Assembly (NCBI RefSeq): GCF_001753205.1
Contig: NZ_CP017560.1
Span: 2,418,001 to 2,482,000, forward strand
DNA: 64,000 nucleotides
DNA from: Sporosarcina ureilytica
GTDB taxonomy: Bacteria; Bacillota; Bacilli; Bacillales_A; Planococcaceae
Direction: 5' to 3'
A program made the position numbers and the translations under genes. Below the pieces are notes generated by a model. It was not told where the DNA came from and did no database searches. It saw nothing but the letters and a program-made list of their open reading frames with translations. Of the stretch, positions 9,491 through 48,243 are shown in pieces (the first letter of the stretch is position 1; each line of letters opens with the position of its first letter).

Positions 9491-9720
9491 TGTTTTGATT
9501 GGCGATTTTGCGCACGCTTTACCTTTTCCGGCGTTACATCATTACCTTCCGGGTCGATAACTTGCACATTTTCAATCGTTTTCCGCATGCTAGAGCGAAA
9601 TGTTGCCAAATATTCTTGTCGTAGTTTCGTTTGCTCTTTCGCTTCTTCCATTGAAAGACCCGACGTTTTGGATTTTTTCGATAGTTCATTGATACGATTT
9701 ATTTTTTCTTTTGATAACAT
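9487..9720 (-). CDS. ynzC: YnzC family small protein (DUF896)
   Basis: A 77-residue helical protein matching the YnzC/DUF896 family: MLSKEKINRINELSKKSKTSGLS, then EEAKEQTKLRQEYL and the motif VKVIDPEG-like VQVIDPEGNDVTPEKV. In B. subtilis it is part of the SOS-induced yneA-yneB-ynzC operon. Here it lies 350 bases downstream of yneB, separated by a GC-rich repeat, so co-transcription is less certain. The ATG at 9720 follows GGAGG by eight bases; the open frame reaches 14 codons further but includes that ribosome site. Confidence 0.9.
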   Translation of the reverse strand: MLSKEKINRINELSKKSKTSGLSMEEAKEQTKLRQEYLATFRSSMRKTIENVQVIDPEGNDVTPEKVKRAQNRQSKQ

Positions 9721-9806
9721 AAGGCGTTCCTCCATCATTTTTACATAACGAGTCAATTTCATAAATTGAATTGCTATATATGTTATATTAAAGAATCTTA
9801 CTACAC

Positions 9807-9939
9807 GTTGATTTCCGTTCCAGGCGGACGCGTTCCTGGGGGCGTGCGGTGAGCCTCCTCGTCGCGAAAACCGCGCTCCTGCGGGGTCTCACCTGTCACG
9901 CTAATCCCCAAGGAGTCGCCGCCTTCCACTACAATCAAC
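9807..9939 (+). repeat. GC-rich ~130 bp intergenic repeat, copy 1
   Basis: A 133-base element that starts GTTGATTTCCGTTC and ends CCACTACAATCAAC, giving imperfect terminal inverted repeats (GTTGATT...GGCGG against CCGCC...AATCAAC). It is clearly richer in G+C than its surroundings and contains an internal hairpin (GGTGAG / CTCACC). A second copy in the same orientation is at 45175-45303. From memory, elements of this kind are common in Bacillaceae genomes; no coding capacity is visible. It fills the stretch between ynzC and yneB; the rest of 9721-10074 is AT-rich and holds nothing I recognise. Confidence 0.85.
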
Positions 9940-10074
9940 TAAAAATGTTAAAAACAATATAACAACATATATAATTTTTCCCACATATTAGCATTCGTAT
10001 TATTTATTTTAGAATATGAAATGAACTCATAACATAGTTAAAAGATATACAAAAAAAGCAAGAAGTGCAATGTT

Positions 10075-11042
<968 letters not shown>

Positions 11043-24661: not shown

Positions 24662-24737
24662 AGGAGAGCTTAAGATTGTTGGAGGTTTGTCACACATTCC
24701 CACATTGTTTTTGAAGTTTTCTAGTAAATTCATCAAT

Positions 24738-24774
24738 AAAAAACTACAAAGGGAAAATTCCTTCGTAGTTTTTT
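24738..24774 (-). terminator. Terminator hairpin downstream of spoVS
   Basis: Stem AAACTACAAAGG / CCTTCGTAGTTT (one mismatch) flanked by A- and T-runs, so it could act on either strand. It lies beyond the inverted-repeat element that follows spoVS, closing the stretch 24579-24937, which otherwise holds only the miaB promoter and that element. Confidence 0.75.
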
Positions 24775-24780
24775 AAAGTT

Positions 24781-24896
24781 AGTCAATTTCATAATCCAAT
24801 CTTTTCGCTGCGCCGATACAATATATAGTTGAGTTAAAGCGTTCTCAACTATATATTGTATCAACTTATCGGTTTTAGGTAATTATGAAATTGACT
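24781..24896. repeat. 116 bp inverted-repeat element, copy 1
   Basis: The ends are a perfect 15-base inverted repeat (AGTCAATTTCATAAT ... ATTATGAAATTGACT). A second, inner perfect pair of 19 bases (GATACAATATATAGTTGAG and its complement) surrounds a loop of about ten bases. The whole element can therefore fold into one long hairpin with an internal mismatch region. A related 142 bp copy is at 29329-29470. It has no coding capacity and looks like a small non-autonomous element (MITE-like). It starts 41 bases after the spoVS stop and may serve as a 3' hairpin. Confidence 0.85.
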
Positions 24897-24937
24897 CAAG
24901 TATAAAAATATTTTTTACGCAACGCCTTACATTGTAA

Positions 24938-29225: not shown

Positions 29226-29328
29226 AGGAACATTTCGAAAATGGCATTTTCAATGGAGAATCTATTTAAATATTTATTTTTCCAAGCGAAAAGACATGCA
29301 AAATAAAAATTTACTTCCTACTCAGTTT

Positions 29329-29470
29329 AGTCAATTTCATAATCCAATCTTTTCGCTGCGCTGATACAATACATAGTTTAGGCAATTATGAAATTGCCCC
29401 TGTTGAGTTAAACCGTTCTCAACTATGTATTGTATCGGCTTAGCGGTTTTAGGTAATTATGAAATTGACT
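29329..29470. repeat. 142 bp inverted-repeat element, copy 2, overlapping the end of cinA
   Basis: It has the same termini as copy 1 (AGTCAATTTCATAAT and its complement) and the same inner arms, here ACAATACATAG / CTATGTATTGT. It is longer because about 26 bases with a small palindrome (GCAATTATGAAATTGC) are inserted near the loop; that insert repeats the terminal motif, as if a second end had been pasted in. The right end lies inside cinA and supplies its last three codons and stop. Confidence 0.85.
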
Positions 29471-30707
29471 CAGTTAACAGCTTAATTAAATAATACATGG
29501 CGAATCTTGCTGTTCGCTGACGATTGGCATTTCTTGAACCCGAAAGCAAAAGTTTGAACGTCGTTGGCACCTGATCTGGTAACGCAATACCAATCCAGAC
29601 TGTCCCAGCCGGTTCACCGTCATGTGGTGTTGGACCTGCTGCGCCAGTAATCCCAATACCAATATTCGTTTGAAACTTTTCTTGGACTTTTAATGCCAAT
29701 GAAGCGGCACATTCACTACTGACAACACCATGCTCATCCAACAGTTTTTGGTCCACACCAAGTTGTTTAACTTTTGCTTCCTCATTATAAACGACGAGAC
29801 CGCCTGCAAGCGCTGCACTTACCCCGGGTTCTTTCGCTAACTCTGCAATAAAGAGACCGGCGGTTAAACTTTCAGCGGCTGCTATTGTAAAGTCATGTTT
29901 TTGAAGGAGTTCTAATGCTTTCGAGGATAACGTATCTTTGTCGGTTCCAAAAATAAATTCGCCGACAATGGCACGTATTTCTTGTTCTATTGGCGCTATC
30001 ATTTTATGTGCTTCTTCTATTGTCGGTGCTTTTGCAGTAATTCTAAGTGTGACTGCATCCGCTGTTGCTAGCGGAGCAATCGTTGGATTTGTTTGTTTAT
30101 CTAATAACGGTTGAATGCGATGTTCTAATTCCGCTTCGCCAATTCCATAAAACTTCAAAACATGAGAAGTAATAATTTCTCGTTCCCCACTTTGTTTCAG
30201 TAAGTAAGGAATCGCTTCATCAACAATCATCGGTTCCATCTCATGAGGTGGTCCAGGTACTAGTATGTAATGTTTTCCATTCTTTTCAACAGCCATCCCA
30301 GGCGCCATTCCTGTACGATTATTTAGGATAGTACTTCCTTTAAACACGAGTGCTTGTTTTTTATTATTATCAGTCATTATTCGTTTACTTCGTATAAAAT
30401 ACTGTTCAATATACGTAAGCGCATCATGATCGCTGACAAGTTCTAAGTCAATATGGGCAGCAATCGTCTCTTTTGTCATATCATCTTTTGTCGGTCCAAG
30501 CCCGCCTGAAAAAATTAATACATCCGCACGTTTTTCGGCGATTTTTATTGCTTCCTTTAATCGGACAGGATTATCTCCAACAACTGTATGATAATAAACA
30601 TCCGCGCCAATTTCCGCGAGACGTGCAGAAATAAAAGCAGCATTCGTATTCGTTATTTGGCCAAGCAATAACTCCGATCCAACCGCTATAATTTCAACCC
30701 TCATCAT
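29457..30707 (-). CDS. cinA: CinA, competence/damage-inducible protein with nicotinamide-nucleotide amidase domain
   Basis: Two-domain protein: an N-terminal MoaB-like COG1058 domain (VGSELLLGQITNTNAAFIS, FSGGLGPTKDDMTKE, LVPGPPHEMEPM), which in relatives hydrolyses ADP-ribose-type compounds, and a C-terminal PncC amidohydrolase domain (AAAESLTAGL, GGLVVYNEEAK, GITGAAGP) that recycles NMN. It is 416 residues, the usual Bacillus length. ATG 30707 follows GGGAG by five bases; a second ATG is the next codon. It is 10 bases downstream of pgsA. The last residues Ser-Ile-Ser and the stop TAA are provided by the end of an inverted-repeat element, so the C-terminus has been remodelled. Confidence 0.95.
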   Translation of the reverse strand: MMRVEIIAVGSELLLGQITNTNAAFISARLAEIGADVYYHTVVGDNPVRLKEAIKIAEKRADVLIFSGGLGPTKDDMTKETIAAHIDLELVSDHDALTYIEQYFIRSKRIMTDNNKKQALVFKGSTILNNRTGMAPGMAVEKNGKHYILVPGPPHEMEPMIVDEAIPYLLKQSGEREIITSHVLKFYGIGEAELEHRIQPLLDKQTNPTIAPLATADAVTLRITAKAPTIEEAHKMIAPIEQEIRAIVGEFIFGTDKDTLSSKALELLQKHDFTIAAAESLTAGLFIAELAKEPGVSAALAGGLVVYNEEAKVKQLGVDQKLLDEHGVVSSECAASLALKVQEKFQTNIGIGITGAAGPTPHDGEPAGTVWIGIALPDQVPTTFKLLLSGSRNANRQRTARFAMYYLIKLLTESIS

Positions 30708-47355: not shown

Positions 47356-48243
47356 TTAAATAAAAATCCGTTTCGAACTTTGAAAGTTCTTAATAGCTTG
47401 ATTCACATCGTTTTCATCTTCTAATCCTACTAACGGTAGTCTCACTTCACCTACATCTACCCCAAACACTTTAAGCGCATATTTAATAGGTACTGGATTC
47501 GGCGCTGTAAATAATGCATTAAATAATGGCAAAAGGGTGCGGTGCATTGTTGCCGCCACAGCCGTACGTCCTTCCAAATGTGCGGCAATCATTTTCTGCA
47601 TTTCATTCCCTACAATATGAGAAGAAACAGAAACAACCCCATCTCCACCAATTGCAAGCAATGGCAATGCCAATGCATCATCACCGCTGTAGACCTTAAA
47701 TTCATCGTCAGTACCACTAATAATTGCAGCCATTTGCGCCAGATCCCCACTCGCTTCCTTGATCGCACGAATGTTTTTTATTTTCGATAACGCAATGGTC
47801 GTTGCCGGCAGCATATTAATGACTGAACGTCCCGGAATATTATATAAAAGGATTGGCAACTCGGTCTCATTGGCAATGGTCGAAAAATGTGCGAACAAAC
47901 CTTTTTGGTCCGGCTTGTTATAGTAAGGTGTCACAAGCATAATTCCATCCACTCCGCACTTTTCAGCGAGCTTTGTCGCTCCTATAGAGCCAGCCGTCGA
48001 ATTGCTTCCTGTCCCCGCTATAATCGGAATTCTACCATTCACTCTTTTCACAGTAAACGTGAGCAGCTCTTCCATTTCTTTTCTTGTTAAAGTAGGAGAT
48101 TCGCCAGTCGTTCCACAAACAACTAATGAGTCCGAGCTATTCTCTATAAGGTGTTCAATTAACTGAGCAGTTTTTTCAAAATCAATGTCTCCTGTTTGTG
48201 AAAAAGGGGTGACCATCGCCGTTGATATTCGTCCGAGTTCCAT
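47356..48243 (-). CDS. dapA: 4-hydroxy-tetrahydrodipicolinate synthase DapA
   Basis: Condenses pyruvate with aspartate semialdehyde, the first committed step to lysine, diaminopimelate and spore dipicolinate. The 295-residue TIM-barrel has the Schiff-base Lys162 (RAIKEASGDL), Tyr134 (LLYNIPGR) and GTTGES (44-49). ATG 48243 has AGGAAGG upstream; six more in-frame codons precede it. It follows asd by 19 bases with no dapG aspartokinase gene between them, unlike B. subtilis. Confidence 0.96.
   Translation of the reverse strand: MELGRISTAMVTPFSQTGDIDFEKTAQLIEHLIENSSDSLVVCGTTGESPTLTRKEMEELLTFTVKRVNGRIPIIAGTGSNSTAGSIGATKLAEKCGVDGIMLVTPYYNKPDQKGLFAHFSTIANETELPILLYNIPGRSVINMLPATTIALSKIKNIRAIKEASGDLAQMAAIISGTDDEFKVYSGDDALALPLLAIGGDGVVSVSSHIVGNEMQKMIAAHLEGRTAVAATMHRTLLPLFNALFTAPNPVPIKYALKVFGVDVGEVRLPLVGLEDENDVNQAIKNFQSSKRIFI

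Follow-up and report, generated by a model that had tools for sequence, protein, structure and literature searches.

Two hairpin-forming repeats beside spoVS and cinA in Sporosarcina ureilytica are MITEs with IS1182-like insertion sequences as their candidate mover

What are the two short, hairpin-forming repeats that lie beside spoVS and cinA in Sporosarcina ureilytica, what moved them there, and what keeps their arms paired? The repeats are found in a stretch of 64,000 nucleotides (NZ_CP017560.1, positions 2,418,001 to 2,482,000), referred to here as the window, and had been described from the letters alone as elements of 116 and 142 bp resembling miniature inverted-repeat transposable elements (MITEs). 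The perfect 15-bp terminal inverted repeats (TIRs) named in that original prediction are present in both copies, and the inner arms of up to 19 perfect bases are present in copy 1 (Table 1). Both repeats are real MITEs: they are short, gene-less and multi-copy, and have inverted ends, target duplications and empty sites. Their ends suggest that a transposase supplied in trans by IS1182-like insertion sequences, which carry the same ends, mobilises them, a reading to which we give a probability of about 0.9. No description of this Sporosarcina MITE family was found in the open-licence literature searched.

The terminal 15-mer has 43 exact matches in the 3.44-Mb S. ureilytica genome and none for a reversed control. 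The terminal repeats are therefore not due to chance, and the two copies have many relatives in their genome. In the window alone, the 15-mer with up to three mismatches gives nine matches where 6.8 are expected, which is not above chance; it is the exact, paired matches that carry the signal. Copy 1 as a query gave 49 matches in the genome, many of which are the two arms of a single element. The TIR-paired elements listed for this genome number 26, comprising 25 of the MITE family (39-144 bp) and one of 265 bp with another interior, of a GC-rich type.

Analysis of the flanks revealed 4-bp target duplications, which are perfect in 21/26 of these elements (20/25 within the MITE family). Across 82 TIR pairs from S. 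ureilytica and its relatives, with nested and some spurious pairings included, bases 2-5 beyond the left and right TIRs show an identity of 0.76-0.84, and all other offsets reach at most 0.56. This offset means that the element extends one base further on each side and that the duplication is 4 bp long. The original prediction had thus placed the ends correctly, and the full sizes become 118 and 144 bp. The pattern ANNT fits 33 of 40 perfect duplications, taken from 51 elements of this and other genomes that were preselected for at least three matching duplication bases, with some elements missed.

Further evidence of insertion comes from the nearest relative searched, denoted G070 (86 percent by its cinA match). 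When the flanks of 26 S. ureilytica elements were searched against part of this genome, both flanks were found for 13, with eight sites empty and five occupied. The flanks overlap by exactly 4 bp at seven of the eight empty sites (at one of these after a two-base extension) and by about 2 bp at the eighth. Both window copies have an empty site in G070. That of copy 2 reads CTTCCTACTTAGTTAACAGC there, whereas in S. ureilytica the element stands between two AGTT; the target of copy 1 is a single ATGT there and AAGT here. As several copies are absent from G070, they moved after the split, and exact loss in G070 is a less likely account than later insertion. It is the target duplications and exact empty sites, together with a candidate autonomous partner that shares the ends, which turn a MITE-like repeat into a MITE.

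Older events can also be read from these elements. A 39-bp remnant in S. ureilytica matches the position of an element of 175 bp in G070, an observation that points to internal deletion as a route of decay. The 144-bp type is the longer of the two types because 26 bases are added at a single place, namely a 22-bp palindrome together with a 4-bp duplication that is imperfect (AGTT/TGTT); copy 2 had been rightly predicted to hold a nested palindrome. At the same place, a G070 element (L143) is interrupted by an entire 53-bp mini-element, nested there with an AGTT duplication of its own, and, judged from these sequences, the 144-bp type is best read as the remains of a nested mini-element insertion.

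The proposed mechanism is that of a family of non-coding elements ending in GAGTCAATTTCATAAT and mobilised in trans by an IS1182-like transposase. A DDE transposase would recognise the inverted ends and place the element in a target of 4 bp, mostly ANNT, duplicating that target. With no detectable transposase of this type now in the S. ureilytica genome, the copies would be orphans in decay, altered by mutation, shortened by internal deletion and interrupted by nested insertion.

Candidate autonomous partners carry the same ends. A scan of named genomes for the 17-base end gave at least 118 stretches. Among the 80 listed, most are from Bacillales and about nine are not, and 32 have a partner end under a permissive criterion; two non-Bacillales palindromes that it admitted resemble chance. 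An element of 1656 bp in Paenibacillus rubinfantis has perfect 17-bp ends and a 470-amino acid transposase frame, for which the best family match is IS1182 (NF033551, 212.8 bits, E 9e-63) and the Pfam matches are DDE_Tnp_1, DDE_Tnp_1_6 and DUF772. In Virgibacillus chiguensis, a 1559-bp element with a 4-bp duplication has a 325-amino acid frame that is 40% identical to the P. rubinfantis transposase; this frame lacks its first part and is probably incomplete. The Virgibacillus protein as a query matched 29 of 68 genomes of the genus Sporosarcina and gave no match in the other 39, with 18 matches in one genome (G072) alone. Both ends were found at eight of the nine long-frame loci examined, 1552-1568 bp apart and with at most three mismatches in all, and four of these eight have a perfect 4-bp duplication. 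The IS1182-like elements span 1552-1656 bp, with DDE_Tnp_1/DDE_Tnp_1_6/DUF772 and inverted ends. A remnant of about 540 bp in another genome (G028, L107) has pieces of the transposase between the same ends, without a duplication.

S. ureilytica and G070 have no match to the Virgibacillus transposase protein among the 68 genomes searched, and a search with the NF033551 profile found none in either genome, one in a further genome (G026), and matches in 4 of 14 control genomes. As both transposase searches are empty in S. ureilytica, its MITEs look orphaned, with a plausible helper elsewhere in the genus. This is a case of a MITE seemingly outliving its helper in the host genome.

Several observations weigh against an IS1182-like mover. 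The transposases score below the NCBI IS1182 cut-off (212.8, for P. rubinfantis, and 253.2 against 270 bits), hence the name 'IS1182-like', and the P. rubinfantis locus ends at the element, so a flanking duplication is unreadable there. The 4-bp duplication is missing from half (4/8) of the two-ended genus loci, and a perfect one from 5/26 of the S. ureilytica elements. Most insertion-sequence ends in the genus read GAATCAATT, one base off the MITE end. The nine loci examined are drawn from 23 long transposase matches, the other 14 of which are all in G072. MITEs are numerous in G070, where there is no transposase, and G026 contains both. The MITE interior, judged by eye with no search made, is not recognisably derived from an insertion sequence. 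Some of these points, namely the empty searches in S. ureilytica and G070, the one-base difference and the loci without duplication, would fit a different, undetected transposase, with the ends shared with IS1182-like sequences through exchange or convergence. We consider this very improbable, however, as 15-17 terminal bases match, the 4-bp duplication is the same where it is seen, the elements occur in the same genus, and the deletion remnant in G028 retains parts of the transposase within those ends. We therefore infer that the mover is the IS1182-like transposase rather than another of the same specificity.

IS1272 is a member of the IS1182 family. It resembles the present case in a related type of transposase that handles inverted-repeat targets, but it reportedly replaces a target hairpin without duplication, whereas the elements described here have 4-bp duplications and exact empty sites (PMC5678879). 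ISPse1 is listed as an IS1182 family element with the values 1653, 16/16 and 4, taken as length, inverted repeats and duplication; these agree with the IS1182-like elements, for the duplication at those loci that have one, although ISPse1 is a separate element from Paracoccus and the transposases here fall under the NCBI cut-off (PMC3281130). MITEs have been assigned to ISMac2, an IS1182 family element of Methanosarcina acetivorans, with one row giving 160 bp, 14 copies, and 26 and 4, taken as the sizes of the inverted and direct repeats (PMC3852290). These are likewise short and non-coding with an IS1182 family partner, but the host is archaeal, the element is different, and a second ISMac2 row there has 0 in the last column (PMC3852290). 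MITEAba12 is also non-autonomous with a proposed autonomous parent and is found in several species of one bacterial family; it differs in belonging to the Moraxellaceae and ISAba12 (PMC6382973). The bcr repeats of the Bacillus cereus group are also interspersed, and are 100-400 bp long, but the Sporosarcina elements have inverted ends and 4-bp ANNT duplications (PMC6542083).

With the features of ISPse1 and the MITEs assigned to ISMac2 in print, this kind of element is already known. What goes beyond the routine is that one end sequence is common to several passenger types, and that the stem has a long covarying history. In addition, a family of repeats shared by Sporosarcina with other Bacillales gains a likely mover and an insertion history.

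Two further arrangements involve IS1182-like transposases. In G026, which has 36 exact TIRs, contig 126 (L445) carries a 119-bp MITE at 1161-1279, about 95 bp from an IS1182-like element at 1375-2940 with an open 475-amino acid frame. Heyndrickxia sporothermodurans has four copies of about 4 kb (L254, L260, L263 and L301) with the same ends and a 4-bp duplication each. In L254 the IS1182-like transposase is split over two frames and a neighbouring gene resembles an IS66 transposase (by appearance, with no search made), a layout that looks as if the whole unit of about 4 kb had moved together. IS1182-like matches are patchy in the genus, yet MITEs with these ends persist in transposase-free genomes.

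The second question concerns the stem. Forty elements of 115-119 bp from Sporosarcina, Aquibacillus and Pseudogracilibacillus align over 120 columns, with conserved ends and a mean column identity of 79%; a perfect duplication flanks 25 of them. At least nine of the ten bases of the loop AACGGTTYAA are kept in 26/40, the elements having been oriented by that same loop. The covariation test covered the inner part of all 40 elements. Pairing is seen in 83.8 percent of the cells of 24 inner pairs and falls to 26-46 percent on sliding; both sides have changed at 15 of the 24 pairs across the three genera. Pairing also exceeds that in shuffles, which ignore relatedness.

The same is seen at closer range. 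The original prediction noted a matched change on the inner arms of the two window copies, and this is real: ATATATAG/CTATATAT in copy 1 stands against ATACATAG/CTATGTAT in copy 2, with one pair T-A in the former and C-G in the latter. Among 29 copies from S. ureilytica and G070 there are six matched double changes (five distinct), 27 single-arm changes and two unmatched doubles, whereas 2000 shuffles gave a mean of 0.7 matched doubles and a maximum of 4. These 29 remain from 36 rows after removal of four pairings that were duplicate or spurious and of three 119-bp subfamily members; the S. ureilytica copies of 39, 66, 66 and 76 bp were never among them. At one stem pair the matched change is present in two copies and the left-arm change alone in four, which shows that intermediates exist. 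Covariation thus extends to relatives, and the choice first offered, selection for pairing or arm-to-arm correction, still stands as an either-or.

Template switching is known both to generate stems of this kind and to correct them (PMC8794818), and we lean towards arm-to-arm template-switch correction as the process that keeps the stem paired. In one S. ureilytica copy (L013), neighbouring changes occur on both arms, as expected from template switching. An alternative is that well-paired copies spread preferentially, a transposase or host factor preferring the cruciform or hairpin, so that the covariation would record selection during spread and not a mutational process. The constant length of 115-119 bp in 40 elements at 79% mean identity, the 15 pairs altered on both sides, and the largely kept loop (though the loop also chose the orientation) are consistent with this, and we hold it possible but doubtful. 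Since the same ends and 4-bp duplications are found in elements with other interiors (the 53-bp mini-element, the GC-rich types of 165-375 bp and the insertion sequences), insertion as such does not require this stem. The shorter S. ureilytica copies have no bearing on this point, since stem loss may postdate insertion.

An RNA role, in which the elements would, in addition to moving, work at gene 3' ends to terminate transcription or stabilise mRNA and would be kept paired by that function, is unlikely. It would accord with the covariation across genera and with the very stable folds, shuffled sequence being far less stable than either copy on both strands (z -9.7 to -12.2 over four strands). 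Relative to shuffled means on the canonical strand, G-U mismatches (84 cells, 30% below) are less depleted than A-C mismatches (32 cells, 54% below), and the ratio of 2.6 against 1.7 in shuffled data, reached in 0/2000 shuffles, goes in the direction an RNA role would give. However, the shuffles take no account of relatedness, a count that takes each state a single time for every subfamily and pair leaves 26 G-U against 19 A-C, and the difference of 52 was reached in 162/500 shuffles, which is not unusual. With 8/13 sites empty in G070, no role is conserved at those places. A consensus scan found no terminator-like site in either copy, though it was insensitive and missed a hairpin with T-runs at 24737-24775, and Rfam gave no match to either copy or to the MITE types in nine loci searched, the sole match being a SAM riboswitch in L083.

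The positions of the elements relative to genes, which the original prediction had implied to be linked to gene 3' ends, speak on both sides. By gene guesses based on open reading frames (ORFs), the S. ureilytica copies are nearly all intergenic, and the few that overlap a gene end do so by at most 15 bases. Over 37 tandem contexts, with two G070 orthologues omitted, 14 gene ends and four gene starts lie within 20 bp of an element (one-sided p 0.015). The end of the upstream gene is nearer than the start of the downstream gene in 9/16 contexts in S. ureilytica, 16/23 in other genomes (p 0.047) and 23/37 overall (p 0.09). The excess near gene 3' ends is therefore weak, being present within 20 bp and slight in overall nearness. 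In S. ureilytica the canonical strand runs along transcription in 13/16 tandem contexts (a hand count with longest-ORF genes; 4/5 for the 118-bp types alone), but this orientation rule was not repeated elsewhere (12/23, without the short-flanked context L155) and was set aside. With its many copies in several genera, the stem provides a natural data set in which RNA function, selection during spread and template-switch correction could be separated.

The same ends flank further passengers. Within the genus these include a subfamily of 119 bp and, at about 165-375 bp, elements that in many cases have a GC-rich interior. A wider proposal is tentative: one helper specificity, for GARTCAATTTCATAATT ends, may serve a guild of unrelated passengers across Bacillales (minis of 22-53 bp, the 118-bp hairpin and the GC-rich elements of 165-375 bp), with the 118-bp stem kept near-perfect across at least three genera mainly via template-switch correction. 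If so, mobile hairpins would be natural recorders of quasipalindrome correction. A 43-bp sequence in Paenibacillus sp. Soil787 (L317, 4068-4110) is almost just the two inverted ends, without a 4-bp duplication. In plasmids, 17 records matched a doubled TIR query, weakly (best E 0.6). The exact 16-mer also occurs in 34 stretches of viral contigs; under the rule applied, no partner TIR accompanies any of them, and these were taken as chance.

Table 1. Parts of the two MITE copies and a probable third element, in window coordinates
Feature	Position	Strand	Remarks
MITE copy 1, 118 bp	24780-24897	-	TIR pair, 4-bp duplication, G070 site empty; canonical strand is minus
Left target duplication AAGT, copy 1	24776-24779		single copy in G070 reads ATGT
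Right target duplication AAGT, copy 1	24898-24901
TIR, left arm, copy 1	24781-24795	+	15-bp perfect
TIR, right arm, copy 1	24882-24896	-	15-bp perfect
Inner stem, left arm, copy 1	24815-24833	+	19 nt, perfect; element folds -45.0 and -50.3 kcal/mol, z -9.7 and -12.2
Inner stem, right arm, copy 1	24844-24862	-	19 nt, perfect
MITE copy 2, 144 bp	29328-29471	-	TIR pair, AGTT duplication, G070 site empty
Left target duplication AGTT, copy 2	29324-29327
Right target duplication AGTT, copy 2	29472-29475
TIR, left arm, copy 2	29329-29343	+	15-bp perfect
TIR, right arm, copy 2	29456-29470	-	holds cinA stop codon (29457-29459)
Nested 22-bp palindromic insert, copy 2	29379-29400		palindrome 29381-29398
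Imperfect 4-bp duplication around nested insert, copy 2	29375-29378, 29401-29404		AGTT / TGTT
Probable third element of window	9750-10028		left TIR 1 mismatch, degenerate right TIR 3 mismatches, GC-rich interior

The probable third element has ATAAC at both flanks, a 5-bp and not a 4-bp match, and its GC-rich interior (GGCGGACGC...) resembles that of TIR-paired S. ureilytica elements at genome positions 368536-368800 and 47624-47940; its membership is probable. Rfam gave no match at window positions 9600-10200.

Pfam matches in the neighbouring genes are SpoVS, CinA, RecA, and Radical_SAM with UPF0004 and TRAM, the last of which we take to be MiaB-type. The two copies had been placed directly downstream of spoVS and cinA. 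Copy 1 is 40 bp past the spoVS stop codon, and copy 2 overlaps the 3' end of cinA. Comparison with G070 shows that CinA, whose C-terminus was LLTK, ends in LLTESIS since the insertion of copy 2, its stop codon now coming from the TIR, so the altered C-terminus is explained by copy 2.

Four promoter-like consensus matches were found around copy 1 against 1.4 expected, and two of the four are inside it. Copy 2 has one against 1.8 expected, which is not above chance, at 29465-29494 and directed outward, with the TTGACT of the right TIR as its first hexamer. Beside copy 1, the inverted repeat at 24737-24775 has 16-nt arms (94%) and T-runs, is present in G070 too, and is likely to be the minus-strand terminator of spoVS. 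Copy 1 separates this inverted repeat from the spoVS stop codon.
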